The translations under genes and the position numbers were made by a program. The notes below the pieces were generated by a model that saw nothing but the letters and a program-made list of their open reading frames with translations, made no database searches and was not told where the DNA came from. From Nocardioides luteus (lineage in GTDB: Bacteria; Actinomycetota; Actinomycetes; Propionibacteriales; Nocardioidaceae), in the NCBI RefSeq assembly GCF_015752315.1, contig NZ_JADOVJ010000001.1, forward strand, positions 2,658,501 through 2,722,500: a stretch of 64,000 nt of DNA, read 5' to 3'. This document shows positions 26,723-60,005 of this stretch, one piece after another (the stretch's first letter is position 1; each line of letters starts with the position of its first letter).

Positions 26723-26739
26723 CTGGACATGGTGTCCAG
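26723..26739. promoter_or_regulatory. TetR-type operator over the M20 start codon
   Basis: CTGGAC-ATGGT-GTCCAG is a perfect 6-5-6 inverted repeat that includes the ATG. With its left flank (GTTTCTGGACA..GTGTC) it is nearly identical to the site at 34654-34670. Confidence 0.55.
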
Positions 26740-27934
26740 CAATGCTGTTCTCCGGGCGCAGATCGTCGCCACCGCCGGCGCGCTCACGCCCGACCTGGTC
26801 GAGCTCCGGCGGAACATCCACGCCGAGCCCGAGCTCGGGCTGCACCTGCCCGCGACCCAGCGCCGCGTGCTCGAGGCGCTGTCCGGCCTGGACCTCGAGC
26901 TCATCGAGGGCCGGTCGCTGACCTCGGTGACCGCGGTCCTGCGCGGCGGGAAGCCGGGCCCGACCGTGCTGCTCCGTGCCGACATGGATGCGCTACCGAT
27001 CACCGAGGCGGTCGACGTGACGTACCGCTCGACCAACGGCGCGATGCATGCGTGTGGTCACGACCTGCACGTCGCCGGGCTGGTCGGCGCCGCCCGCCTG
27101 CTCGCCGAACACCGGGCTGACCTGGCCGGAAACGTCATCCTGATGTTCCAGCCGGGCGAGGAAGGACACGGCGGAGCGAAGCTGATGATCGACGAGGGCG
27201 TCCTCGACGCGGCGGGTAGCCGGCCGGTCGCGGCGTACGCCGTCCATGTCGGCAACGCGCCGCGCGGGATCTTCCTGACCCGGCCGGGCACGGTGACCGC
27301 GAGCTCGACGCACCTGAGGATCGATCTCGCGGGTCGCGGCGGACACGGCTCTCGCCCCCACGAGACCCTCGACCCGGTCCCGGTCGCTGCCGAGATCGTG
27401 CTGGCGCTGCAGTCCTACACCGCGCGTCGCTTCGACTCCTTCGACCCGGTCGTGATCTCGGTGACGAACCTGGCCGCAGGCACCGGGGCCGACAACGTGA
27501 TCCCCGAGTCGGTCGAGATCACCGGCACCGTACGTACCGTCGACCCGAACACGTTGTCCAGGATCGAGCAGGACCTTCCTCGGCTCGTCGAGGGCATCGC
27601 GGCCGCACACGGGCTGGAGGCGACGGTCGCGCTCGACACCGGCTACCCGAGCGTCGTCAACGACGACGCGGTCACTCGACGTGCGATGGAGACACTGCGT
27701 AGCGCCTTCGGGCAGCGCGTGGTCGAGGTGCCCCGGCCGACGATGGGCGCCGAGGACTTCTCCTTCATCAGTCAGCAGGTGCCGACCACAATGGTCCTGC
27801 TCGGAGCCGCCCCGAGCGACGACGCCGCTCCCAACCACTCCCCTGACGCCGCTTTCGACGACAGCGTCCTCGGCGACCAGGCGGCGGCGCTGGCTCTGTT
27901 GACGATCGACACACTGGCAGCTGCGGGCGTTTGA
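26729..27934 (+). CDS. M20-family amidohydrolase (aminoacylase/hippurate-hydrolase type)
   Basis: 401 residues. Metal ligands are seen in RADMDALPI, HACGHDLHVA, QPGEEGHGGAK and AVHVGN, with the dimerisation domain inserted at about 185-300 and a final His in NHSPDAAF. These di-metal enzymes cleave N-acylated amino acids or related amides. Substrate is unassigned. An operator matching the nearby TetR regulon covers its start codon, so it may belong to the same acyl-metabolism response. Confidence 0.92.
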   Translation: MVSSNAVLRAQIVATAGALTPDLVELRRNIHAEPELGLHLPATQRRVLEALSGLDLELIEGRSLTSVTAVLRGGKPGPTVLLRADMDALPITEAVDVTYRSTNGAMHACGHDLHVAGLVGAARLLAEHRADLAGNVILMFQPGEEGHGGAKLMIDEGVLDAAGSRPVAAYAVHVGNAPRGIFLTRPGTVTASSTHLRIDLAGRGGHGSRPHETLDPVPVAAEIVLALQSYTARRFDSFDPVVISVTNLAAGTGADNVIPESVEITGTVRTVDPNTLSRIEQDLPRLVEGIAAAHGLEATVALDTGYPSVVNDDAVTRRAMETLRSAFGQRVVEVPRPTMGAEDFSFISQQVPTTMVLLGAAPSDDAAPNHSPDAAFDDSVLGDQAAALALLTIDTLAAAGV

Positions 27935-28067: not shown

Positions 28068-28571
28068 ATGCGCATCCAAGGCTTCGTCACCACGCTCGCG
28101 GCCGCGGCTTCTGCGACGGTCCTGGCCGCCGCGCCGGCCCTCGCGAGCGGCAGCCCGCACTTCATCAAGAACCTGACGAAGGTGACCGACGCCAGGCTGT
28201 CCTCGGTCACCGTCGCGTTCAAGGAGGCCGGCCTCGAGAGCGGAGCGGTCGAGACGATCACCGTGACCGCTCACCTCGACGCGACGTATCAGTGCGTCAA
28301 TCGCGGTGGCCACAATCCGGATGACCCGAAGAAGACCGTGATCAGCGGTGACTACTCGAAGTCGGGCGAGTTCAAGGCTGCCAGGAACGGCAACGTCATC
28401 GGCTCTTTGACGGTGACCGCACCCGCGCCCAGCACCGTCGTCGACTGCCCCAGGGGGCAGACGGCGAAGCACACGGTGTCGACGTGGTCGAACATCTCGG
28501 TCACCGACGAGGACACCCTGGCGACGATCGCCCTCGAGGGCACCTACTCCTTCGGCGAGCCCGTCGACTGA
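28068..28571 (+). CDS. Secreted protein of unknown function
   Basis: 167 residues. A Sec signal peptide (MRIQGFVTT then Ala-rich core, cleavage near ALA-SG at residue 28) precedes an extracellular region rich in Thr, Ser and Val, with beta-strand character and two Cys residues that may form a disulfide (YQCVNRGG, VDCPRGQ). I do not recognise a domain. GGGGAAG precedes the ATG at 28068. The 133-bp upstream gap includes TATAGA at 27970-27975, a possible -10 with no clear -35. Confidence 0.7.
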   Translation: MRIQGFVTTLAAAASATVLAAAPALASGSPHFIKNLTKVTDARLSSVTVAFKEAGLESGAVETITVTAHLDATYQCVNRGGHNPDDPKKTVISGDYSKSGEFKAARNGNVIGSLTVTAPAPSTVVDCPRGQTAKHTVSTWSNISVTDEDTLATIALEGTYSFGEPVD

Positions 28572-28664: not shown

Positions 28665-29171
28665 ATGTCCAACACCATGCACGCCGACGAGATCGATGCG
28701 GTCCTGAGCCGTGCGCTGAGCCGCGAGCTCCTGGCCCGAGACCTGACCCGCCTTGCGTACGTCGCCAAGGACGGCACCCCGAGGAACATCCCGATCGCGT
28801 TCACCTGGAACGGCTCGCAGGTGGTCATGTGCACCACCCCCAACTCCCCCAAGCTCATCTCGCTGCGTCACAACCCGGCGGTCGCCCTGACCATCGACAC
28901 CGAGGTGCACCCGCCGAAGATGCTGCTCATCCGCGGGACCGCCGAGCTGGACGCCGTCGACGGGATCCCCGAGGAGTACCTCGAGATGAACGGCTCCTAC
29001 GAGATGACACCGGAGCAGCGGGTCGCCTGGGAGGCGGAGGTACGGTCCTTGTACGACAGCATGGTGCGCATCGTCGTCACCCCGACCTGGGCGAAGCTGA
29101 TCGACTTCGAGACGACCCTTCCGACACAGGTCGAGGAGCTGGTCCGGCAGCGCGCCGAGCGCACGCGGTGA
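28665..29171 (+). CDS. Pyridoxamine-5'-phosphate-oxidase-fold flavoprotein
   Basis: 168 residues. The split-barrel core is seen in LARDLTRLAYVAKDGTPRNIPIAFTWNGSQVVMCT and NPAVALTIDTEVHPPKMLLIRGTAEL; a helical C-terminus follows. It belongs to the flavin/F420-binding PPOX superfamily, whose members reduce diverse small molecules. The cofactor cannot be fixed from sequence. GAGGAG precedes the ATG at 28665. It is 19 bp upstream of the DUF1704 gene on the same strand, close enough for co-transcription. Confidence 0.82.
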   Translation: MSNTMHADEIDAVLSRALSRELLARDLTRLAYVAKDGTPRNIPIAFTWNGSQVVMCTTPNSPKLISLRHNPAVALTIDTEVHPPKMLLIRGTAELDAVDGIPEEYLEMNGSYEMTPEQRVAWEAEVRSLYDSMVRIVVTPTWAKLIDFETTLPTQVEELVRQRAERTR

Positions 29172-29190: not shown

Positions 29191-30390
29191 GTGGGTACCC
29201 CTGGGGGTGTGACTGCTTCGACTCAGGAGATCGAGCCTGCCCTCAGCATCGACGCCCGACTCACCGCGATCGAGCGCCAGATCGACCTGCTGCTGAACCT
29301 CACCCCGCTCAACGGAGCGGAGGCGTGGGACGACTTCAAACGGACCGACTTCACGGTCGCGCCGACGCTGCGGCTCCGAGAGCTCGACTTCGAACCTGAC
29401 CTGGTGCGTCGTGATCTCTACAACCTCGAGATCGAGGACGTCGCCGACCCGGCCCTGCACTCCTTGTTCCGGGCCAAACGAGATGAGATCGCGCGACAGA
29501 TCACCGCGCTCGAGGACCGTGACACGACGAAGTTCGTGCACGGCTCACGGCAGCTCTTCGGCGACCCCTCCGCCGGTCTCGTGTCGTCGGCCGAGCAGCT
29601 GCTCGCCGACATCCCGCCGCCGCCCCCGGCCCGCGGAAACGTGACGTCCGGGGCGTTCGCTGATGCAGCCCGCGCCGAGCTGGAGCAGTATCAAGCGGCG
29701 TACCCCGGGTTTCCCGCGGATGTCGAGGTGCGTGAGGACGTCTCCGAGCTGATGGTGTCCGCCGGGCAGCTGCTCATCCCTGAGTCGGCGACCTTCCGCG
29801 CCGACCGGGTCGAGCCGCTGCTTCACCACGAGGTCGGTACGCACGTCGTCACCTACCAGAACGGTGCGCGGCAGCCGCTGAAGATGCTGACGATCGGCCT
29901 GCCCGGCTACGACGAGACCCAAGAGGGCCTGGCGCTCATCTCCGAGTACGTCACCGGCGGGCTGGACCCACGGCGGCTGCGGGTGCTGGCGGCGCGGGTC
30001 GTCGCCGTCGACCTGATGCTCGCGGGCGGAAGCTTCATGGAGATCTTCGAGACCTTGACGGGCGAGCACCGGATCCCCCGCGGGACCGCCTGGTCGATCG
30101 CGATCCGAGTGGTCGTCGCCGGCGGGATGGTGCGCGACGCGATCTACCTGCGCGGGATCAGCCGGATCCTCGAGGCCGTTGCCTCGGGAGTCGATCTCGA
30201 CGTGCTCCTGGTCGGCAAGCTCGCGCTGGACCACATCGACCTGGTGCAGGACCTGCTCGAGCGCGGCGTACTCGAGCCTCCATGGGTGCGCCCGCGGTGG
30301 CTCGAGGTGCCCGGCGCGCGCGAGCGCCTTGACCGGATGGCCGGCGGCTTGCAGGTCACCGACCTCTACGAAGGAGATGGAGAGAGATGA
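29191..30390 (+). CDS. DUF1704 / QEGLA-motif metallopeptidase-like protein
   Basis: 399 residues. A helical N-terminal half leads to the zinc-peptidase-like site HEVGTH (residues 213-218) and the family-naming QEGLA (244-248), whose Glu245 would be the third ligand. The family is labelled flavohemoglobin expression-modulating QEGLA protein in bacteria, and its eukaryotic relatives (MATCAP) are tubulin tyrosine carboxypeptidases. GTG at 29191 is taken; GTG at 29209 is equally possible. Its stop overlaps the ATP-grasp start (ATGA), so the two are one unit. The native substrate is unknown. Confidence 0.88.
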   Translation: MGTPGGVTASTQEIEPALSIDARLTAIERQIDLLLNLTPLNGAEAWDDFKRTDFTVAPTLRLRELDFEPDLVRRDLYNLEIEDVADPALHSLFRAKRDEIARQITALEDRDTTKFVHGSRQLFGDPSAGLVSSAEQLLADIPPPPPARGNVTSGAFADAARAELEQYQAAYPGFPADVEVREDVSELMVSAGQLLIPESATFRADRVEPLLHHEVGTHVVTYQNGARQPLKMLTIGLPGYDETQEGLALISEYVTGGLDPRRLRVLAARVVAVDLMLAGGSFMEIFETLTGEHRIPRGTAWSIAIRVVVAGGMVRDAIYLRGISRILEAVASGVDLDVLLVGKLALDHIDLVQDLLERGVLEPPWVRPRWLEVPGARERLDRMAGGLQVTDLYEGDGER

Positions 30391-31376
30391 AGCTTGCGTT
30401 CTTCGTGAACGAGATCGCAGTCGAACACCCCGAGATGGCAACCACGCGACTTGCGAAGGCGGCCGCTGTGGGGGCGCACGAGGTCTGGTACGTCGGTGCA
30501 GGCGATGTCGAGTTCGACACGAGTCAACAGCTCCTCGCCCGCGCGCGCCGTGCCGAGGTCATCGAGGGCGACACGCTCGAGACGTTCTTGGCCCGGATCA
30601 AGGAACGTGATCCGGAGCGACTGGTGATGGACTCGCTGGATGCCCTGTTCCTGCGCAACGAAGAGGCCACCGAGATGCAGGAACGACCATGGGCCGGCCC
30701 GCTCGGCACCGTCTTCGGCCAGATGCTCGCCGCTCGAGGTGTCACGGTGGTCAATGACCCGGTGACGTTGAGCCGTGCGACGAGCAAGCTCTATCTCGAG
30801 GAGTTTCCCCAGTCTGTCCGGCCACGCTCCCTCGTCACCCGCGACGCCGGAGCGATCAGACGGTTCATCGCAGAGGTGGGCAAGTCCGTCGTCAAGCCGA
30901 TCTACGGCGGCAAGGGCCGCAACGTGTTCGTGGTCGCGGACGAGAACGAGACCAACCTGGCGCAGATCATCGAAGCGGTCTTCGAGGACGGATATGCGAT
31001 CGCCCAGGAGTTCGTGAACGGCGGCGAGGAGGGCGACGCCAGGATCTTTCTGCTCGACGGGAAGCTGATCGAGATCGACGGGGCGTACGCCGCGTTCCGG
31101 CGCGTGCCCGACGGCAACGACCCGCGCGCCAACATCAGCAAGGGCGGGCGGATGAAGCCGCTCGAGATCGGCGCACGCGAGAAGGACATCGTCGACACGA
31201 TGGGTCCCAAGCTCGCGGCCGACGGGTTGTTCTTCGTCGGGATCGACGTGGTTGGCGACAAGGTGCTCGAGATCAATGCCGACAGCCCGGGTGGTATCCA
31301 GAGCATCGAGTGGCTCTACGAAACCGACATCTGCCCGGCCATCATCGAGGCCCTCCGGGAGCGCGCCTCCAGCTGA
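30387..31376 (+). CDS. Glutathione-synthetase-like ATP-grasp ligase
   Basis: 329 residues with a GshB-type N-terminal domain (MKLAFFVNEIAVEHPEMATT), an ATP-grasp lysine loop SVVKPIYGGKGRNVF (about 165-180) and the metal-binding end VLEINADSPGG (about 300-310). ATP-grasp ligases join a carboxylate to an amine through an acylphosphate. The partner is the DUF1704 peptidase-like gene (4-bp overlap); this pairing is widespread, and suggests one adds and the other trims a residue on a shared peptide-like substrate. AAGGAG lies upstream of the ATG. Confidence 0.9.
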   Translation: MKLAFFVNEIAVEHPEMATTRLAKAAAVGAHEVWYVGAGDVEFDTSQQLLARARRAEVIEGDTLETFLARIKERDPERLVMDSLDALFLRNEEATEMQERPWAGPLGTVFGQMLAARGVTVVNDPVTLSRATSKLYLEEFPQSVRPRSLVTRDAGAIRRFIAEVGKSVVKPIYGGKGRNVFVVADENETNLAQIIEAVFEDGYAIAQEFVNGGEEGDARIFLLDGKLIEIDGAYAAFRRVPDGNDPRANISKGGRMKPLEIGAREKDIVDTMGPKLAADGLFFVGIDVVGDKVLEINADSPGGIQSIEWLYETDICPAIIEALRERASS

Positions 31377-31947: not shown

Positions 31948-32211
31948 CTACGACGAGCCGACGAGCGCGACCACCTCGACGAGCGCGATCACGGTCGCCA
32001 CCGCGGCGGTGACCAGGACGCGGCGGCGCCCGAGCAACAGGTACGAAGCCAGCGCAGCCACCGCCAGCGCCACACCGAGGCGCCACCACAGCTGACCGTC
32101 AGTCAGTGGATGGCGGACGACGACGAGCGCGGCGACGACGAGCGACAGGTGCGTACGCCGCCAGGCGAGCTCGGTGCGCTCGGGCTGCAGCCCCGGGTCT
32201 CCCCCGCTCAC
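31948..32211 (-). CDS. DUF202 small membrane protein
   Basis: 87 residues: LQPERTELAWRRTHLSLVVAALVVVRH near the start is the DUF202 signature (ERT-AW-RT), followed by two more hydrophobic segments (about 48-64 and 68-86). GTG start overlaps the stop of the upstream DUF202 gene (GTGA), so the pair is translationally coupled. Such tandem DUF202 genes (YidH/YidG type) have no known function. Third gene of the MFS operon. Confidence 0.82.
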   Translation of the reverse strand: MSGGDPGLQPERTELAWRRTHLSLVVAALVVVRHPLTDGQLWWRLGVALAVAALASYLLLGRRRVLVTAAVATVIALVEVVALVGSS

Positions 32212-32576
32212 ACCAGCAGTGCCATCGAGACGAGCGCGACGGAGCCGAGCACGCCGAACACCAGGGGAAGCGGCGCCCGGCGGGTCGGGAGGGCAGCGCG
32301 CCGTCGGATCGCGCGCTCGCTGCGTACCCAGCTCCACCAGGACCAGGCGGCACAGCCCGCCGCGAGGATCGCGAGGCTGAGAGGGGCGAGCACGGCCAGG
32401 GCCGTGCCGCCGCCGACCGCCAGGGTGTCGACGGCGACCGCGACCGCGAGGAACGCCAGCGAGGTGCGGATCCAGGCCAGGAACGTACGCTCGTTGGCCA
32501 GGGTGAACCTGACATCGGGTTCCTCAGTCTCGCTGTAGAGCCAGCTGTCGAGCCGACCGCGGGGCGCGCGGCTCAC
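32208..32576 (-). CDS. DUF202 (YidH-type) membrane protein
   Basis: 122 residues with VRFTLANERTFLAWIRTSLAFLAVAVAVDTLA (about 22-52), the canonical DUF202 start, and three hydrophobic segments in total. The GTG start at 32574-32576 overlaps the MFS stop (GTGA) and the stop overlaps the next GTG. It thus sits between the MFS transporter and the second DUF202 gene in a fully coupled three-gene operon. Confidence 0.85.
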   Translation of the reverse strand: MSRAPRGRLDSWLYSETEEPDVRFTLANERTFLAWIRTSLAFLAVAVAVDTLAVGGGTALAVLAPLSLAILAAGCAAWSWWSWVRSERAIRRRAALPTRRAPLPLVFGVLGSVALVSMALLV

Positions 32577-33892
32577 GACGCAGGCTGCGTGACGGCCTCG
32601 GTGTCCGCGTCGACCCGAGGACGACGAACGGTCACACCGGGGACGAGCGCCGCGGTGACGGCGAACAGGACCGTGGCCACCCACGCGATCGTCATCCAGC
32701 GCTCCCAGCCACCGGTCGCCTCGACCACCCGCGGCGCGAAGAGCACGGTCGCCAGGATGAAGGTGCGGTTGAGCAGGTGGTTGAGGCCGAAGGCACGACC
32801 CTGGATGTCGGGGTGGACCTCCTCGACGTGCTCGGAGAAGCTCGCCATCCACGGACCGAAGGTGGCAGCGAGGGCCACGCCGATGCCGATGAAGAGGACG
32901 ATCACCAGGCTCGAGGACGCCTCGCTCCCCCGGCTCATCAGCGCCAGGAAGGCGCCCAGGAAGACCGACGCGGCGACACCGCCTCCGACCATGAAGGCCT
33001 TGCGCCGCTGCGTACGGTCCGAGAGGCGGGCGAAGACGAGGCTCAGCGCGAGGTTGCTCAGCCAGAAGACCATCGTCATCGCCGAGGCCGCCCGGACCGA
33101 GACGCCGAACTGCTGGACGAGCATGGTCTGGGCGTAGGCGTTCATCGTGGCCAGCAGGACGTAGAGGAACGACATCGCGAGCACGTGCGTCCAGAACGCG
33201 CGGCGCGCCATGAGGAGGCTCAGACCCCTTCGGCCATGCGGCACGTCGACGGTGTGGGCGTCGTGCTCGGTCAGGCGTACGGCGCGGCGGACCTCGGGAG
33301 CGAGGTCACGCAGCGTGAGCGCGACGACGATCGCTCCGACCAGCGCGGCACCGGCCATGATGAACAGCTGCGAGCGCCACTCGTTGCCGAAGACGCCCAG
33401 GGTCGCCGAGGCGACGGCAGCGGCGAAGAAGTTCGCCCCCACGGACCCCCAGCTCCAGAACGCGAAGGCCTGGGCGCGGCCCATCCGCGGGGTGAAGTCG
33501 CGGATGAGCGGCTGGGTGCCGGCGACGGCGACGCCCTCGACGAAGGCGAGCACGATCCGGGCGAGCGCGAAGTGGCCCACCGAGTCCGCGGTGGCCATGA
33601 ACAGGCAGGCGGCGGCGGAGAGGAACATGAACGGGACCAGGATCCTCACCCGGCCGACCCGGTCGGCGAGCTCGCCGCCGAGATAGCCGGCCAGGGCTCC
33701 GAAGATCAGCGACGCGGCCGTGATGAGGCCGTAGGTCTTGAGCGACATCCCGAGGTCGTCGAGCAGCAGCGGCAGGACGGGAGCCAGCTGGCCCTCGAAC
33801 GCCGAGATGAACAGGGCGAGCACGACGACAGCCAGCAGCACGCGGCGGCGTGCTCCGACGGGGTACTCGGTGAGCAGGGTGCGGTAGGACAA
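32573..33892 (-). CDS. Major facilitator superfamily transporter
   Basis: 439 residues with twelve hydrophobic segments. The MFS loop motif GGELADRVGRVRIL lies between helices 2 and 3, and a degenerate copy (ARLSDRTQRRKAFMV) between 8 and 9. The TTG at 33890-33892 is preferred to a TTG at 33910, because the likely -10 (TAGCAT) places the transcript start after the latter, and AAGGGCGG precedes the former. First gene of an operon with two DUF202 genes. A 6-5-6 operator covers its promoter, so the adjacent TetR probably represses it. Substrate unknown. Confidence 0.9.
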   Translation of the reverse strand: MSYRTLLTEYPVGARRRVLLAVVVLALFISAFEGQLAPVLPLLLDDLGMSLKTYGLITAASLIFGALAGYLGGELADRVGRVRILVPFMFLSAAACLFMATADSVGHFALARIVLAFVEGVAVAGTQPLIRDFTPRMGRAQAFAFWSWGSVGANFFAAAVASATLGVFGNEWRSQLFIMAGAALVGAIVVALTLRDLAPEVRRAVRLTEHDAHTVDVPHGRRGLSLLMARRAFWTHVLAMSFLYVLLATMNAYAQTMLVQQFGVSVRAASAMTMVFWLSNLALSLVFARLSDRTQRRKAFMVGGGVAASVFLGAFLALMSRGSEASSSLVIVLFIGIGVALAATFGPWMASFSEHVEEVHPDIQGRAFGLNHLLNRTFILATVLFAPRVVEATGGWERWMTIAWVATVLFAVTAALVPGVTVRRPRVDADTEAVTQPAS

Positions 33893-33911
33893 CGGGGATC
33901 CGCCCTTCAAG

Positions 33912-33931
33912 ATGCTAGACAGAACGTCTAG
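33912..33931 (-). promoter_or_regulatory. MFS operon promoter with TetR-type operator
   Basis: CTAGAC-AGAAC-GTCTAG (33915-33931) is a perfect 6-5-6 inverted repeat. On the minus strand its right half runs into the -10 TAGCAT (33912-33917), the same arrangement as at 34654-34673. Confidence 0.7.
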
Positions 33932-34007
33932 TAACGGTCATCACGTCCGACTGTAGGCCGAGTGACCCGCACCACACAAGACACCGTGTCCACCTCAGCG
34001 CCGCACG

Positions 34008-34723: not shown

Positions 34724-36292
34724 GTGAATCTCGGTAGCTATCTCACCCGCACCGCGACGTTCACCCCCGACGCCACCGCCCTGGTCTCCGGCACCGACCG
34801 ATGGACCTACCGCCAGCTCGAGGACGACACCAACCGGCTCGCCGCTGCGCTCATCGCCCGCGGCTGCACACCGGGCACTCCCGTCGCCACCCTGGCCACC
34901 AATCGCGGCGAGCTGGTCGTCGCGGAGATGGCGATCTGCAAGGCGGGCGCGCTCCGGGTGCCGATCAGTGCGCGGCTCGCCGCCGCCGAGGTCGAGCACG
35001 TGCTCCTCGACGCCGCTGTCAGGATCGTCTTCACCGGCGGCGCCCACCTCGAGCTGGTCCGCAAGATCGCCGACGCGCACAGCCTGGACTGCCTCGTCGT
35101 CGACCTGGACAACAGCGCCACCCGCGCCGACGGCACCGTCGCGTACGACGCCCTGCTCGCCGAAGGCTCCACCGACCCGGTCTCCGTCGACGTCGACGAG
35201 GACGCCCCGGCCGTCCTCAACTTCACGTCCGGCTCGACCGGCACGCTGAAGGCGGCGGTCCAGACGGTCGGCAACCGGCTGGCCAACATGCGCAAGCTGG
35301 CCATGAACCCCTACGGTTCGCTCTCGGCCGAGGCCGTCTACCTCGCCCCGGGCCCGATCACCCACGCCAGCGGGATGGTGATCCTCGGCTGCTTCTTCCG
35401 CGGCGCTACGGTGGTCGTGCTGCCGGCCTTCGAGGTCGAGGCCTATCTCGACACGCTCGAGCGTGAGCGGGTGACCCACACCTTCGTCGTGCCCGTCATG
35501 CTCAACCTGGTCCTCGCCTCCCCCACGCTGCGCGACCGCGACCTCTCCGCGCTGCAGAGCATCACCGTCGGCGGTGCTCCGGTCAGCCCGGCGCGGCTGC
35601 GTGAGGCCGTCGAGGCGTTCGGTCCCGTGGTCAACCAGGGCTACGGACAGGGCGAGACGACGAGCGCGATCACCTTCCTCAGCTCCGAGGACGTCGTCCG
35701 CGGTATCGAGTCGGACCCGGAGCTGCTGCTCTCCTGCGGCCGTCCCGTCTACGACACCGAGGTGATCGTGGTCGACGAGGACCACAACCCGTTGCCCGCC
35801 GGCGAGATCGGCGAGATCGTGGCGCGCGGCCCCGACTGCGTACGGGAGTACTTCCACGCCCCCGAGGCGACAGCTGAGACCTTCCGCGACGGCTGGGTGC
35901 ACACCGGCGACCTCGGCCGGATCCGCGAGGACGGGTTCGTCTTCATCGTGGACCGGAAGAAGGACATGATCATCTCGGGCGGCTACAACGTCTACTGCTC
36001 CGAGGTCGAGGCCGCGCTCTACGAGCACCCCGCCGTCAGCGAGGCCTGCGTCGTCGGTGTGCCCAGCGAGAAGTGGGGCGAGACCGTGAAGGCGTACGTC
36101 ACGCTCGCCGCCGGCACCACCGCGACCGAGGAGGAGCTGCGCGACTTCTGCCGCACACGGCTCTCGGGGGTGAAGGTGCCGCGGATCATCGAGTTCGCCG
36201 ACACACTGCCCGTCAACCGCAACGGCAAGGTCGACCGGCGGGCGCTGCGTGAGCGCGACTGGGCCGGCACCGCGGAAGGTCGGCTGAGATGA
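34724..36292 (+). CDS. Acyl-CoA synthetase (AMP-binding ligase)
   Basis: 522 residues of the adenylate-forming superfamily: P-loop-like LNFTSGSTGTLKAAV (about 165-180), YGQGETTSA motif, GDLGRIREDGFVFIVDRKKDMI hinge and the catalytic Lys in NRNGKVDRRAL at the C-terminus. It activates a carboxylic acid to its CoA thioester. GTG at 34724 follows AGGAGG by 6 nt; a GTG at 34679, 5 nt after the -10, is an alternative. First gene of a four-gene coupled operon with acyl-CoA dehydrogenase, alkylsulfatase and carboxyltransferase. Confidence 0.92.
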   Translation: MNLGSYLTRTATFTPDATALVSGTDRWTYRQLEDDTNRLAAALIARGCTPGTPVATLATNRGELVVAEMAICKAGALRVPISARLAAAEVEHVLLDAAVRIVFTGGAHLELVRKIADAHSLDCLVVDLDNSATRADGTVAYDALLAEGSTDPVSVDVDEDAPAVLNFTSGSTGTLKAAVQTVGNRLANMRKLAMNPYGSLSAEAVYLAPGPITHASGMVILGCFFRGATVVVLPAFEVEAYLDTLERERVTHTFVVPVMLNLVLASPTLRDRDLSALQSITVGGAPVSPARLREAVEAFGPVVNQGYGQGETTSAITFLSSEDVVRGIESDPELLLSCGRPVYDTEVIVVDEDHNPLPAGEIGEIVARGPDCVREYFHAPEATAETFRDGWVHTGDLGRIREDGFVFIVDRKKDMIISGGYNVYCSEVEAALYEHPAVSEACVVGVPSEKWGETVKAYVTLAAGTTATEEELRDFCRTRLSGVKVPRIIEFADTLPVNRNGKVDRRALRERDWAGTAEGRLR

Positions 36293-37473
36293 CCTTCTCC
36301 CTCACCCCGTCCTACCCCGACAACCCGCGCCTGGACGAGCTGGTCCACCGGCTGCGGGACTACCTCGACGGCGAGCTCGCCGACTACGAGCGCGGCCTCG
36401 GCCTCGGCCCGGAGACGCCCCTGGACCGCTCGATGCTGGAGCCGGTGTGGCAGCGCAGCCGCGAGCTCGGCTTCTACGGCATCCACCTGCCCGAGTCGCT
36501 CGGCGGCCAGGGCCTGAGCTTCACCGAGCTGGCCGCGCTCAAGGAGGAGATCGGCGCGTCCGGCCGCCAGCTCGCCACCAGCGTGCTCGGCGACATGGGC
36601 GGCCCGCTCCGGGTCGGCGCGATCTTCGAACACGCGACCGAGCACCAGATCGAGAAGTACCTGATGCCCGTCGTCCGCGGCGAGCGCGCCTGCTGCTTCT
36701 CGATGACCGAGGACGACGCCGGCTCCGACGTACGCCGGATGCGGACCACCGCCACCCCGACGCCGGGCGGCTTCCTGATCAGCGGGCACAAGGTGTTCAG
36801 CACCGGTGGCACCTTCGCCGACTTCGCGATCCTGGTGGCCCGGATGGCCGGCGAGGAGGAGTCGTACACCGCCTTCTTCATCGACCTCGACTCCCCCGGC
36901 TGCCGGGTGCTGCCCGGCGACCTACCGCTGTCGGGGCAGAACATCGAGAGCGACGTCGTGCTCGAGGACTGCTTCGTGCCGCAGGAGAACCTGCTCGGCG
37001 AGATCGGCCAAGGCCTGCGGATCGCACTCGGCCGGGTCACCGCCAACCGGCTGCTGCACTGCCCGACCGCGCTCGGCGCGGCCCGGCGAGCACTCGCCCT
37101 GGCGCTCGACTTCGCCGCCCACCGCACCGTCTTCGACGGGCTGCTGCTGGAGAAGCAGGCGATCCAGCACAGGCTCGCCGACATGGCCACCGACTACTAC
37201 GCCGCCCGGTCGATGACCTACGACGCTCTGGCCGACCTGGACGCCGGCAGGCGTCCGCGGATCGAGTCGTTCATGTGCAAGCTGTTCGTGGCCGAACGCT
37301 CGTTCGAAATCGCCGATGCGGCGCTGCAGTTGCACGGCAAGGCCGGGATGGTCCGGGGCGCCGAGATCGAGGTGATCTGGCGGCGGCTGCGGATGTTCCG
37401 CGTGCTCACCGGCTCCTCGGAGATCCAGCGCAACGGCGTCATCCGCGATCTCGTGAAGTCGCTGGGGGCATGA
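36289..37473 (+). CDS. Acyl-CoA dehydrogenase
   Basis: 394 residues with the three-domain ACAD fold: helical N-domain, middle beta-domain with CFSMTEDDAGSDVRRMRTTA (FAD/substrate contact) and C-terminal helical domain ending VIWRRLRMFRVLTGSSEIQRN. It introduces the alpha-beta double bond in an acyl-CoA, passing electrons to ETF. The start overlaps the ligase stop (ATGA) and the stop overlaps the alkylsulfatase start, so it is tightly coupled within the operon. Chain length or branching is not readable from sequence. Confidence 0.93.
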   Translation: MTFSLTPSYPDNPRLDELVHRLRDYLDGELADYERGLGLGPETPLDRSMLEPVWQRSRELGFYGIHLPESLGGQGLSFTELAALKEEIGASGRQLATSVLGDMGGPLRVGAIFEHATEHQIEKYLMPVVRGERACCFSMTEDDAGSDVRRMRTTATPTPGGFLISGHKVFSTGGTFADFAILVARMAGEEESYTAFFIDLDSPGCRVLPGDLPLSGQNIESDVVLEDCFVPQENLLGEIGQGLRIALGRVTANRLLHCPTALGAARRALALALDFAAHRTVFDGLLLEKQAIQHRLADMATDYYAARSMTYDALADLDAGRRPRIESFMCKLFVAERSFEIADAALQLHGKAGMVRGAEIEVIWRRLRMFRVLTGSSEIQRNGVIRDLVKSLGA

Positions 37474-39293
37474 TGACCGACGTCCACCAGGAGGAGGCCG
37501 ACGCCCACCGCGGGTTCGTGGGCGCGCTGAAGCCCGGCGTCGTGACCAGGGCCGACGGCACCGTCGTGTTCGACGCCAACGCAGACGCCTTCCTCGACTC
37601 CCCCGCGCCGGAGACCGCACACCCGGGGCTGTGGCAGCACAGCCGGCTCACCTCGCTGCAGGGGCTGTTCGAGGTGACCAACGGCATCTATCAGGTCCGC
37701 GGCCTCGACCTCGCCAACCTCACCATCGTCGAGGGCGAGCGCGGCATCATCGTGATCGACACCCTCACCACGGCCGAGACCGCGGCGGCCGCGCTGGGGC
37801 TCTACCGCGAGCACCGTGGTGACCGGCCCGTCACCGGGGTGGTGCTGACCCATCCTCACGCCGATCACTTCGGCGGGATCGCCGCCGTGCTCGCGGCGGG
37901 CGGCGGTGACGTACCGGTGCTGGCACCGGAGGGGTTCCTGGAGCACGCGGTCTCGGAGAACGTCTACGTCGGTCCCGCGATGAACCGGCGCTCGACCTTC
38001 ATGTACGGCAGCATGCTGCCGGTCTCGCCGGACGGACACGTGGGCTGCGGCCTCGGTCCACGGCTGGCGTCGGGCACCATCGGGCTGGCCGAGCCGACCG
38101 ACTCGATCACCCGGACCGGGGAGACGCGGGTGATCGACGGCGTCGAGATGGAGTTCCAGCTCACGCCGGGCAGCGAGGCGCCGGCGGAGATGAACATCTA
38201 TCTCCCCGGCCGACGGGCACTGCTCCTGGCCGAGAACGCCGTCCACTCCCTGCACAACATCATCACCCTGCGCGGCGCCGAGGTGCGCGACGCCCGGTTG
38301 TGGGCGCACTACCTCACCGAGGCGATCGACCTGTTCGCCTCACGCGCCGACGTCGCCTTCGCGACCCATCACTGGCCGACCTGGGGTGCGGAGCGGATCG
38401 AGGCCTTCCTCGCCGGGCAGCGCGACGTCTACGCCTACCTGCACGACCAGACCGTACGTCTCACCAACCGAGGCCTGACGCCGAAGGAGATCGCCGAGGA
38501 GCTCGTCCTGCCACCGGCGCTCGACGCGCAGCCCTCGACCCGGGGCTACTACGGCTCGCTGAGCCACAACGTGAAGGGGATCTACCAGCGCTACCTGGGC
38601 TGGTACGACGCCAACCCCGCTCACCTGTGGGAGCTGCCACCGGCCGAGGAGGGCGAACGCTGGGTGCGGCTGCTCGGCGGCACGTCCGCGGCGATCGACC
38701 ACGCCGCCGCTCTCGTGGCGAGCGGCGAGAGCGGTGACCTGCGGTTCGCGGCGACCCTGCTCAACCATGTGGTCTTCGCGGACCCGTCGGAGCGAGCGGC
38801 CCGCGAGCTGCTGGCCGAGGTCTACACCCGGCTCGGGCACGGCGCGGAGAACGCCACCTGGCGCAACGTCTACCTCACCGGTGCGCGCGAACTCCTCGAC
38901 GGCCCGCAGGTACCTCCCCGCGGAGGCGGTCGGAGCCTGCTCGCCGCACTCACGGTCCCGCAGCTGCTCGACTCCCTCTCCATCCGGATCGACGGCCCGC
39001 GGGCGTGGGGCCTAGACCTGCGGATCGACTGGCATCTCACCGACCACGACGACACGGCCGCGGGCGGCTGGTGGCACGCCCGGCTCCGCAACGGGGTGCT
39101 GGTGCACCGGCGCGGCAGCGCCCCGGACCCGGCCGCGGGCCTCACCCTGACGCTCACCCGCCCGCAGCTCGCCGGTCTGCTGGGCGCGCGGCGGCTCGAC
39201 GGGATCGAGCACGCGGGTGACCTCGGTCTGCTCCAGCGGCTGCTGGGGGTGCTCGAGGCTCCCGACCCGGCATTCCCTATCGTGACCGCGTGA
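37470..39293 (+). CDS. Metallo-beta-lactamase-fold alkyl sulfatase (SdsA1-like)
   Basis: 607 residues. The binuclear zinc motif HPHADH is at residues 128-133; AENAVHSLHNIITLRGAEVRDA and FATHHWPTWG carry further family residues. The middle helical dimerisation domain and a C-terminal SCP2-like lipid-binding domain (from about 480) complete the SdsA1/BDS1 architecture. These enzymes release sulfate and an alcohol from alkyl sulfates such as SDS. No signal peptide is seen, so it is probably cytoplasmic. It is embedded, with 4-bp overlaps on both sides, in the acyl-CoA operon. Confidence 0.93.
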   Translation: MMTDVHQEEADAHRGFVGALKPGVVTRADGTVVFDANADAFLDSPAPETAHPGLWQHSRLTSLQGLFEVTNGIYQVRGLDLANLTIVEGERGIIVIDTLTTAETAAAALGLYREHRGDRPVTGVVLTHPHADHFGGIAAVLAAGGGDVPVLAPEGFLEHAVSENVYVGPAMNRRSTFMYGSMLPVSPDGHVGCGLGPRLASGTIGLAEPTDSITRTGETRVIDGVEMEFQLTPGSEAPAEMNIYLPGRRALLLAENAVHSLHNIITLRGAEVRDARLWAHYLTEAIDLFASRADVAFATHHWPTWGAERIEAFLAGQRDVYAYLHDQTVRLTNRGLTPKEIAEELVLPPALDAQPSTRGYYGSLSHNVKGIYQRYLGWYDANPAHLWELPPAEEGERWVRLLGGTSAAIDHAAALVASGESGDLRFAATLLNHVVFADPSERAARELLAEVYTRLGHGAENATWRNVYLTGARELLDGPQVPPRGGGRSLLAALTVPQLLDSLSIRIDGPRAWGLDLRIDWHLTDHDDTAAGGWWHARLRNGVLVHRRGSAPDPAAGLTLTLTRPQLAGLLGARRLDGIEHAGDLGLLQRLLGVLEAPDPAFPIVTA

Positions 39294-57072: not shown

Positions 57073-60005
57073 TGCGCCTCCACCACCTCGAGGTCACCGC
57101 GTTCGGCCCGTTCACGGGCACGGTGACCGTCGACTTCGACCAGCTCTCCGAGGCGGGGCTCTTCCTGCTCTCGGGCGCCACCGGCGCGGGCAAGACGAGC
57201 GTCCTCGACGCGGTCTGCTTCGCGCTCTACGGCGACGTTCCCGGCGACCGTTCGGTCGCGAAGCGACTGCGCAGCGACCGGGCCCCGGCCGAGGTCGCCA
57301 CGCGGGTCGTCCTCGACGCGACGCTCGCCCAGCGGCGCTTCCGGATCACCCGCTCACCGTCGTGGGAGCGCCCCAAGCGACGCGGCTCCGGCACCACGAC
57401 CCAGCAGGCGTCCGTCGTGCTGATGGAGCTGGTCGGCGAGGAGTGGCGCACGCTCACCAACCGCCTCGACGAGGCCGGCCACCTGGTCTCCGACCTCCTC
57501 GGCATGACACTGACCCAGTTCGTGCAGGTCGCGATGCTCCCCCAGGGCCGCTTCCAGGCCTTCCTCCGCTCCAGCGCCGAGGAGCGCAAGCGGCTGCTGG
57601 AGCGGCTCTTCCGCACCGAGCGGTTCGCCGACGTGGAGCGGTGGCTCCGTGAGCGCCGTGTCGAGCTCCGCCGTCGTTCCGAAGAGCTCAACGCCGGCGT
57701 CGCCGAGGTGGTCAGCAGGATCAGCGAGACGGCTGCCGTGACGCTCCCCGATGACTGGGACGTCCACGACCTCGGCCTGCCCGCCGGCGACGGCGCGATC
57801 GCCACCTGGGCCCGCACCCTCACCGAGGAGGCCACCGAGGCGCAGGCCGTCACCTCCGGCGCCGCGATGGAGGCCCTGGCCGCGGAGTCGGAGACCCTGG
57901 CCGCCCTCGACGCCGCCCGCGCGATGGCCGAGAAGCAGCGTGGCCTCCGCGCCGCCGCCGCGGCCGAGAGCCGTCTCGTCGCGACGGCCGAGGAGCAGGC
58001 CGAGCGCCTACGCCGCGTCGAGGCCGCGCAGCGCGCCGAGGCCGTCGCCGGGGTCAGCGACCTCGCCGAGCAGGCGCGCCGCGAGCACGCCCGGGCGGTC
58101 GCCCTGGCGCCGAGCGACCTGACCCTGACCGAGGCCAAGGCAGCCGTCGACCGGATCGCGGCGCGCCTGGCCCAGGCCCGCGCCCTCGTGCCGGTCCAGC
58201 GCCGGCTCAGCGAGGTCGTCCGTGAGCTCGCGACGACCGGCGCACAACGCGACCGCGTGGTCGCCCAGACGCAGGAGCAGGCACGGCTCACCGAGCAGCT
58301 CCCGCAGCAGACCGAGGCCCTCGCTGCCGAACTGGTGGCGGCCACCGAGGCGGCCGCGGAGATCCCGGTGCTCCGCGCTCAGGTCGCGGCCGTGACCGAG
58401 GTCGGCCGGCTGACCCGGGAGCTCGCCGATGCCCGAGCCCGGCACGAGTCGGCCAGGACGGCCGCCATGGAGGCGCGCACCCACTATCTCGACGTACGCC
58501 AGGCACGGCTCGACGGCATCGCGGCCGAGCTCGCCGGCGCCCTCGCCGTCGGCGCGGACTGCCCGGTGTGCGGCTCCCACGAGCACCCGCACAAGGCCTC
58601 TCCTGCCGAGGGAGCGCCGGACGCTGCGGCGGAGAAGGCCGCCCAGACGGTCTACGACAACGCCAGCGCCGAGGAGCACGCCCGCGACCAGCACGTGCGC
58701 GACCTCAGCACGCGTCTACAGCTCGCCCAGGAGGCCGCCGGTGAGACCGATGAGCCTGTCGAGTCGCTGGCCGAGCGCCTCGCCGGGCTGGAGCGTACGG
58801 CTGCCCGGGAGGCCGACCTCCGCGCCAAGCTCACGTCCGCCGAGCAGGCGCGGGAGCGCTCGGTCGCGCTCCGTGCCGAGCTCGAGACGCGCGCTGCCGA
58901 GCTGGAGACCACGCTGCGTCACCTCACCGAGGAGCGCGAGCGTCTCGAGGAGCAGCTGAGCGACGTCCGCGACGAGCACCCCGATGTCGACGCCCTGCTC
59001 ACCGCGCTCGACCGCGACCACCGGTCGGCAGCCACCGCCCTCGAGCGGCTCGAGGCGGCCACGCGCGCCGCCGAGGCGCTCGCCGGGGCCGAGCGCACGC
59101 TCACCGCCACCGCCGACCGGGCGGGCTTCGACAGCCCGGAGAGCGCCCTCGCCGCCGCACTCCCGCCCGAACGGGTCGCGGCGTTGAACAGCCAGATCAA
59201 GACGTACGCCGACAGCCTTGCGGCCGCCCGCGCGACCCTCGACTCGCCCGGCGCCGCCGAGATCCTGGCCACGGACGAGCCCGACCTGCGGGCGCTCTCC
59301 GACGCCCACCGCAAGGCCGCCGACGCCGCCGACGCCGCCCGCTCGGCGGCCGACACCGCCGCCAACCGAGCCGCGCGTCTCGACTCGCTGCAGCGCGATC
59401 TGACCCGCGCGCTCTCGACCTGGGCGCCCGTACGCGACGACCTCGAGGTCGCAGCCCGGATCGCCGCCTTCGCCGAGGGGAAGAGCAGCGACAACCAGCT
59501 CCAGATGAGCCTGTCGGCCTACGTCGTCGCCTACCGCCTCACTCAGGTCGTCGCCGCCGCCAACGAACGGCTGGCGAAGATGAGCGACCAGCGCTACGCC
59601 CTGGAGCACTCCGCGGCCAAGGGCGCCGGTGACCGTCGCGGGGGACTCGCGCTGATGGTCCGCGACGACTGGTCGGGCGAGTCGCGGGACCCCGCCACCC
59701 TCTCGGGCGGCGAGACCTTCGTGGTCTCCCTCGCCCTGGCGCTCGGCCTGGCCGACGTGATCATGAACGAGGCCGGCGGCCAGATGCTCGACACCCTCTT
59801 CGTCGACGAGGGTTTCGGCTCCCTCGACGCGGACACCCTCGACGACGTGCTCGACGTCCTCGACACGCTCCGCGAGGGCGGCCGGATCATCGGCGTGGTC
59901 AGCCACGTCACCGAGATGCGCGAGCGCATCCCCACCCAGCTGGCGGTCACCAAGGGCCGCGAGGGCTCCACCCTCCACGTCCTCGGCACCCGACCCGAAA
60001 ATTAA
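57072..60005 (+). CDS. sbcC: SbcC ATPase subunit (Rad50 type)
   Basis: 977 residues. The N-terminal ATPase half has Walker A LLSGATGAGKTSVLDA (about 36-51) and a Q-loop; two long coiled coils (about 190-490 and 510-800) flank the zinc hook CPVC at residues 497-500. The C-terminal half has signature LSGGETFVVSLALALGLA and Walker B LDTLFVDEGFGSLD. It is the partner of SbcD and is co-translated with it. The coiled coils are unusually rich in Ala, Glu and Arg, as normal for high-GC genomes. Confidence 0.95.
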   Translation: MRLHHLEVTAFGPFTGTVTVDFDQLSEAGLFLLSGATGAGKTSVLDAVCFALYGDVPGDRSVAKRLRSDRAPAEVATRVVLDATLAQRRFRITRSPSWERPKRRGSGTTTQQASVVLMELVGEEWRTLTNRLDEAGHLVSDLLGMTLTQFVQVAMLPQGRFQAFLRSSAEERKRLLERLFRTERFADVERWLRERRVELRRRSEELNAGVAEVVSRISETAAVTLPDDWDVHDLGLPAGDGAIATWARTLTEEATEAQAVTSGAAMEALAAESETLAALDAARAMAEKQRGLRAAAAAESRLVATAEEQAERLRRVEAAQRAEAVAGVSDLAEQARREHARAVALAPSDLTLTEAKAAVDRIAARLAQARALVPVQRRLSEVVRELATTGAQRDRVVAQTQEQARLTEQLPQQTEALAAELVAATEAAAEIPVLRAQVAAVTEVGRLTRELADARARHESARTAAMEARTHYLDVRQARLDGIAAELAGALAVGADCPVCGSHEHPHKASPAEGAPDAAAEKAAQTVYDNASAEEHARDQHVRDLSTRLQLAQEAAGETDEPVESLAERLAGLERTAAREADLRAKLTSAEQARERSVALRAELETRAAELETTLRHLTEERERLEEQLSDVRDEHPDVDALLTALDRDHRSAATALERLEAATRAAEALAGAERTLTATADRAGFDSPESALAAALPPERVAALNSQIKTYADSLAAARATLDSPGAAEILATDEPDLRALSDAHRKAADAADAARSAADTAANRAARLDSLQRDLTRALSTWAPVRDDLEVAARIAAFAEGKSSDNQLQMSLSAYVVAYRLTQVVAAANERLAKMSDQRYALEHSAAKGAGDRRGGLALMVRDDWSGESRDPATLSGGETFVVSLALALGLADVIMNEAGGQMLDTLFVDEGFGSLDADTLDDVLDVLDTLREGGRIIGVVSHVTEMRERIPTQLAVTKGREGSTLHVLGTRPEN

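Follow-up and report, generated by a model that had tools for sequence, protein, structure and literature searches.

We examined a two-gene locus of Nocardioides luteus (assembly GCF_015752315.1) that lies within a 64,000-nucleotide stretch of contig NZ_JADOVJ010000001.1 (positions 2,658,501 to 2,722,500 of the forward strand), hereafter the window, whose numbering is used for all coordinates unless a locus is named. A gene for a MATCAP-type metallopeptidase (MAT) runs directly into one for an ATP-grasp ligase resembling glutathione synthase (GshB), with the following features:

29191..30390, forward strand: MAT, a MATCAP/DUF1704 (PF08014) gluzincin metallocarboxypeptidase-like protein of 399 aa with a GTG start
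29827..29844, forward strand: HEVGTH (HExxxH) metal-site helix, MAT residues (codons) 213-218
29920..29934, forward strand: QEGLA, MAT codons 244-248, with Glu245 as the presumed third metal ligand
30387..30390, forward strand: ATGA stop/start overlap, formed by the ligase ATG (30387-30389) and the MAT TGA (30388-30390)
30387..31376, forward strand: GshB-like ATP-grasp amide ligase (PRK12458-like) of 329 aa

An alternative in-frame GTG at 29209 would shorten MAT to 393 aa. The ATGA overlap suggests translational coupling of the two genes, and an AAGGAG occurs at 30371-30376, ahead of the ligase start. A first-pass annotation of this DNA had described both the coupled junction and a full HEVGTH...QEGLA site; coordinates, motifs and junction were all confirmed.

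MAT scores 288.7 bits against PF08014 (MATCAP, formerly DUF1704; gathering cut-off 27) and adopts the MATCAP fold in structural comparison, where matches were drawn only from the chains ranked highest by Foldseek. Against the NCBIfam model TIGR02421 (QEGLA, a hypothetical equivalog) it reaches 298.5 bits, under the cut-off of 338.65, which one MATCAP protein of the three-gene form described below and one solo protein do reach (339.8 and 344.7 bits). His213, Glu214 and His218 are invariant in 45/45 aligned MATCAP proteins (alignment A1) and in 9/9 ligase-coupled ones (A5), and their equivalents in all nine solo proteins of alignment A4, from which L061 was left out. The same is true of Glu245 (45/45 and 9/9, with an equivalent Glu in 9/9 solo proteins); alignments A4 and A5 also place this Glu in L059, L070, L071 and L053, where a simple pattern search of 26 proteins had missed or misplaced it. 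Family, fold and metal-site residues thus bear out the likeness to MATCAP proposed from the sequence at first pass. The closest named MAT loci belong to N. luteus (95% identity) and N. turkmenicus (90%), and the host genome (5.82 Mb, one contig) contains one PF08014 and one PF02955 match at E <= 0.001.

The ligase belongs to the glutathione-synthetase type of ATP-grasp proteins (PF02955, 156 bits; PF02951, 27.8 bits) and matches E. coli GshB (PDB 1gsa) with an E value of 7e-29. Its best NCBIfam match is NF009110 (PRK12458, a 'glutathione synthetase' subfamily) with 326 bits, under the cut-off of 408 that both three-gene ligases tested pass (475 and 501 bits). It also stays under the GshB equivalog cut-offs of NF003573 (195.5 versus 272) and TIGR01380 (183.5 versus 299), the first of which E. 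coli GshB passes with 496. In a phylogenetic tree one branch (93/93; 94% of 200 bootstrap trees) parts five canonical GshBs from 18 ligases encoded beside MAT (module ligases). Whether these 18 form a single clade is left open with RimK as outgroup, because two Photobacterium ligases stand apart; RimK and L077 sit on long branches and their placement is unsure. Canonical and module ligases share the fold and the ATP/Mg and phosphate-handling core (Lys125, Lys160, Arg210, Arg225, Arg233, Asn235, Asp273, Glu281 and Asn283 of E. coli GshB), which is kept in 18/18 module ligases; roles for Glu281, Asn283, Asp273 and Arg210 are given in an excerpt of PMC10979984. They differ at two positions invariant in the five canonical GshBs: Asp19 (E. 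coli numbering) is kept in 2/18 module ligases and replaced by Tyr in 14, while Thr288 is found in none of the 18, Gly standing there in 17. Furthermore, Sinorhizobium C101 has both kinds of gene, a canonical gshB and one for a module ligase, on separate replicons. Because of these scores, the tree, the residue differences and the separate gshB, the database name of glutathione synthase or synthetase is probably wrong for this ligase subfamily. An ordinary glutathione synthase, which would have counted against the first-pass reading, is not supported by the sequence tests made here (equivalog scores, tree and two residues). Separately, the ligase relative P0360 has 498 aa, about 170 beyond the usual length, and is a possible fusion, and the host genome holds three GCS2-type (glutamate-cysteine-ligase-like) matches (G000:C1 4754505, 1468849 and 1559437).

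MAT and the ligase travel together. The ligase directly follows MAT in 30/30 related loci. Most of these loci, retrieved by searching with MAT, come from close relatives, and together they span Nocardioides, Kribbella, Terrabacter, Agromyces, Actinoplanes, Cellulomonas, Intrasporangium, Propionibacteriaceae, actinobacterial metagenome-assembled genomes (MAGs) and one Acidobacteria MAG (41% identity). Of 38 junctions measured, that of the window among them, 32 have the 4-nt overlap. Five more range between an overlap of 1 nt and a distance of 14 nt from MAT stop to ligase start, and in Photobacterium L049 the ligase precedes MAT. Among 296 actinobacterial genomes, MAT was detected in 12 and the ligase subfamily (E <= 1e-25) in seven, all seven lying within the 12 with the genes adjacent, an overlap with a hypergeometric chance of 2e-11 (5e-10 without the host genome; kinship ignored in both). 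Two of the seven (G032 and G046) seem to be the assemblies that also supplied loci L027 and L025, so that the locus and genome sets overlap. A sample of 149 Acidobacteria-phylum genomes yielded six with MAT, two of which (L031 and L073) carry the three-gene form and four lack the ligase. The coupling of ligase and peptidase put forward at first pass is borne out by this co-occurrence, and the pairing is real and, for the ligase, exclusive in the sampled genomes.

All open reading frames (ORFs) of at least 40 aa from the 38 loci, representing 20 lineages, were clustered all against all, with flanks of up to 8-9 kb (less at contig ends), and the top eight ORFs of 15 of the 38 loci were inspected. 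MAT and ligase recur in all 20 lineages and a third gene, FGA, encoding a protein of the N-formylglutamate amidohydrolase family (PF05013), in eight. Otherwise the lists inspected contained only antisense or frame-shifted shadows and ORFs matching at most four other lineages, one of which overlaps an S. meliloti ABC-transporter ATP-binding gene; none of the conserved ORFs in these lists was a transporter, regulator or tailoring enzyme. A tblastx comparison of 1.5-kb flanks from 30 two-gene loci (best match per genus pair) gave only weak matches at scattered positions (best E 2.5e-7), although peptides too short or variable for BLAST could escape it. Based on these two analyses, a hidden substrate gene beside the module was rejected. 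No match was found in 50,697 phage records, and a defence system was rejected, with 0 PADLOC matches for the three proteins at E <= 0.01.

The gene order FGA, MAT, ligase occurs in S. meliloti, Shinella, the Acidobacteria MAG and several Actinobacteria, and the annotations of Mesorhizobium, Aminobacter and Roseateles records show it too. FGA was found genome-wide in 6/6 genomes with the three-gene form and in 2/30 with the two-gene form, both Actinoplanes (154.6 and 139.7 bits), whose flanks showed no match to module FGAs by ORF clustering; PF05013 had no match in the window genome. The Nocardioides pair is a reduced, two-gene form of the FGA-MAT-ligase module. Across 11 module FGA stretches His44, Glu67, Glu68, Asp93, His158 and Asn161 (S. 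meliloti numbering) are invariant, a set which we take to include active-site residues. The one module FGA tested against the HutG equivalog, that of the Acidobacteria MAG, scores 21.8, far under the cut-off of 278.75, and is therefore no typical HutG (FGase; PF05013, structure 2q7s).

In seven of 11 FGA-bearing loci the peptidase itself carries a degenerate FGA domain. Long MATCAP proteins of this kind, 55 of which were aligned (A2), include:

L031:5949-7868 (sense codons): long MAT with pseudo-FGA N-domain
L047:8257-10143: long MAT with pseudo-FGA N-domain

Their N-terminal domain of about 250 aa lacks a Pfam annotation (a Pfam search of the 55 found MATCAP in every protein and, beyond that, a single weak Syntaxin match) and was identified as a degenerate N-formylglutamate amidohydrolase by hhalign, a cross-hit between hidden Markov models (HMMs) and structure. 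It lacks an aligned HSxNH motif, a further difference from HutG, and its HMM matches the FGA domain of two Photobacterium fusions and 0/9 stand-alone FGAs (E <= 1e-4). In these two megaplasmid loci FGA is fused in frame to MATCAP (L049:8119-10104 and L079:5007-7001) and the fusions adjoin a divergent GshB-like ligase, which in L049 shares 29-31% identity with the query module ligases. The third component and the pseudo-FGA domain were absent from the first-pass annotation.

MATCAP proteins also occur on their own. A second bacterial clade of the family, likewise absent from the first-pass annotation, has no such ligase adjoining. The loci with a MATCAP-family protein and no adjacent ligase are L050-L053, L055, L061 and L069-L072. 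Several of these proteins read HEGWIH, HEAYVH or HEGHVH at the metal site, compared with HE(V/I/L/M)G(T/V)H in coupled proteins. L061 falls on the coupled side of the MAT tree, on a long branch and with unsure placement, and the gene upstream of MATCAP in Pseudoalteromonas L050 bears the annotation of a redoxin family protein.

Upstream of MAT in the window, and in the same direction, lie three genes:

26729-27934, forward strand: M20 amidohydrolase/carboxypeptidase, CpsA-like and under that model's cut-off
28068-28571, forward strand: small putative secreted protein without a Pfam match
28665..29171, forward strand: PPOX-class flavin/F420 protein (PF01243, 32.5 bits; cut-off 28.1), with 4/4 NCBIfam PPOX matches under cut-off

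The PPOX gene does end 19 bp ahead of the MAT start, as observed at first pass, and is possibly co-transcribed with MAT and the ligase here. As a component of the module it was rejected, occurring in only 2/30 related loci, both of close Nocardioides. The M20 peptidase and the secreted protein were rejected likewise (2/30 and 1/30 loci, close Nocardioides only). Operon borders were not set by a promoter and terminator scan, because it returned no promoter-like site and one terminator-like site, within the ligase gene, against 1.4 expected. Elsewhere in the window, an alkylsulfatase-type metallo-beta-lactamase gene was noted at 36289-39293. Its open frame from 36447 overlaps an acyl-CoA dehydrogenase gene (36289-37473), so that the real start is probably later, and its domains begin near aa 419. 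Strong AT skew (0.305) marks 32001-34000, and GC content peaks at 75% in 58001-60000.

Both enzymes have intact catalytic residues. We tentatively favour, at less than moderate confidence, the reading that they make and hydrolyse the same C-terminal amide of one peptide-like substrate and so act in opposition. The locus would then be a self-contained amide-bond module, of which Nocardioides has the reduced actinobacterial form. The ATP-grasp ligase would phosphorylate a peptide-like acceptor at a terminal carboxylate, to which it would couple an amino acid, and the MATCAP-type metallocarboxypeptidase would cleave this C-terminal bond again, which would let the modification be added and removed. 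In the fuller form of rhizobia, the Acidobacteria MAG and other Actinobacteria, the FGA-type amidohydrolase would act on the same substrate, and the peptidase's own FGA domain, probably dead, may help substrate binding or complex assembly. The acceptor would be a peptide or protein whose gene lies at another place in the genome. The opposing activities, the C-terminal bond, the reversibility, the roles of FGA and the nature of the substrate are all inferred.

Several observations weigh against this reading. The pair is not obligate, five of the 12 MAT-positive actinobacterial genomes and four of the six from the Acidobacteria-phylum sample being without the ligase, and none of 10 ligase-less MATCAP loci has the ligase, FGA or pseudo-FGA nearby. 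MATCAP without the ligase is thus common, and the peptidase can therefore work without it. Since the two-gene form does without FGA, a single cycle of all three enzymes is not required. The co-occurrence figures are uncorrected for relatedness. Lastly, the pair could just as well assemble a product, with the ligase joining and the peptidase trimming.

That last course is possible, but we hold it to be the less probable one: the ligase would extend a small peptide or conjugate, which MAT, with FGA where present, would trim to a mature metabolite, the steps being sequential rather than opposed. In its favour, small molecules are common products of ligases with this fold, and stepwise trimming would suit FGA and MAT, both of them members of hydrolase families. 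In addition, neither another conserved gene (in the lists inspected) nor a protein substrate was found encoded with the module. The lack of a conserved transporter, regulator or tailoring enzyme in the same lists would nevertheless be unusual for a biosynthetic cluster, and those MATCAP relatives whose activity is known work on the C-termini of proteins (PMC10499314). Opposing action is favoured because no such accessory gene was seen to accompany the module and because the MATCAPs that have been characterised target protein ends.

We regard as quite unlikely an amino-group-carrier or scaffold-peptide pathway, in which the ligase would attach an amino acid to a carrier C-terminus, further enzymes would modify it and MAT would release it. 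LysX, LysW and LysK follow such a ligase-carrier-carboxypeptidase logic, which the pair shares in its ligase and carboxypeptidase, and the ligase is remotely similar to the LysX and MptN models. Scaffold-peptide logic is likewise described for PEARL pathways in an excerpt of PMC10979984. Against this, LysW was not detected in the host genome (0/1, with 4/14 control genomes positive), and no conserved carrier or modifying enzyme was seen beside the module.

An ordinary glutathione synthase, or one for another gamma-glutamylcysteine-dependent thiol, standing beside a peptide-salvage peptidase is very unlikely. The database names suggest it, and among the literature matches listed PRK12458 appears in print only as a genome-screening marker for GshB, used in lactic acid bacteria (excerpt of PMC3462692). 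The precursor could also exist, since GCS2 proteins, gamma-glutamyl-cysteine ligases among them, were present in 34/35 genomes tested, a result of little discriminating power. The GCS2 family covers other ligases too. The Acidobacteria MAG genome, which may be incomplete, gave no GCS2 match, and the equivalog scores, the tree, the changes at Asp19 and Thr288 and the second, canonical gshB of Sinorhizobium C101 all argue against this reading. The reading with the least to commend it, and a highly improbable one, is that the pair serves in regulation or stress and carries out no opposing chemistry. It follows the TIGR02421 name ('flavohemoglobin expression-modulating QEGLA motif protein', which reportedly comes from Pseudomonas fhp work), whereas MAT scores under that model's cut-off, both proteins keep their active-site residues and no conserved regulator was seen nearby in the lists inspected.

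The closest characterised relatives of MAT are the eukaryotic MATCAP enzymes TMCP1-2 (KIAA0895L and KIAA0895; PF08014), a tubulin detyrosinase and deglutamylase family to which MAT is 22% identical and from which it differs in being bacterial and coupled to a ligase. The characterised MATCAP enzymes found in print act on tubulin tails (PMC10499314). No substrate of a bacterial MATCAP relative was found in the literature searched, and an earlier computational notice of an FGA/DUF1704/GshB association is possible. The module shares with the eukaryotic cycle of TTL/TTLL and MATCAP/CCP enzymes on tubulin tails the set of an ATP-grasp ligase and a MATCAP-type carboxypeptidase. CCP deglutamylases have the M14 carboxypeptidase fold, and M14 carboxypeptidases are among the structural neighbours of the FGA-like domain. 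The module ligase differs in being of the glutathione-synthase type, with no TTL match among Pfam families at E <= 0.001.

A broader proposal, which we consider unlikely, is that the module is a bacterial writer and eraser for protein C-termini, composed of the ATP-grasp ligase, an M14-like FGA with a dead FGA scaffold and MATCAP, and that the eukaryotic detyrosinase descended from, or is sister to, the ligase-coupled bacterial clade. If true, bacteria would use the same enzyme classes that set and erase the tubulin-tail marks of eukaryotes. The coupled clade offers a candidate origin, on the bacterial side, for the detyrosinase. The analysis also exposes a likely over-annotation, in that ligases named glutathione synthase are probably not such enzymes. 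For the MATCAP family in bacteria, the tightly coupled ligase narrows the function to the making and cutting of an amide bond, which is testable in tractable bacteria.
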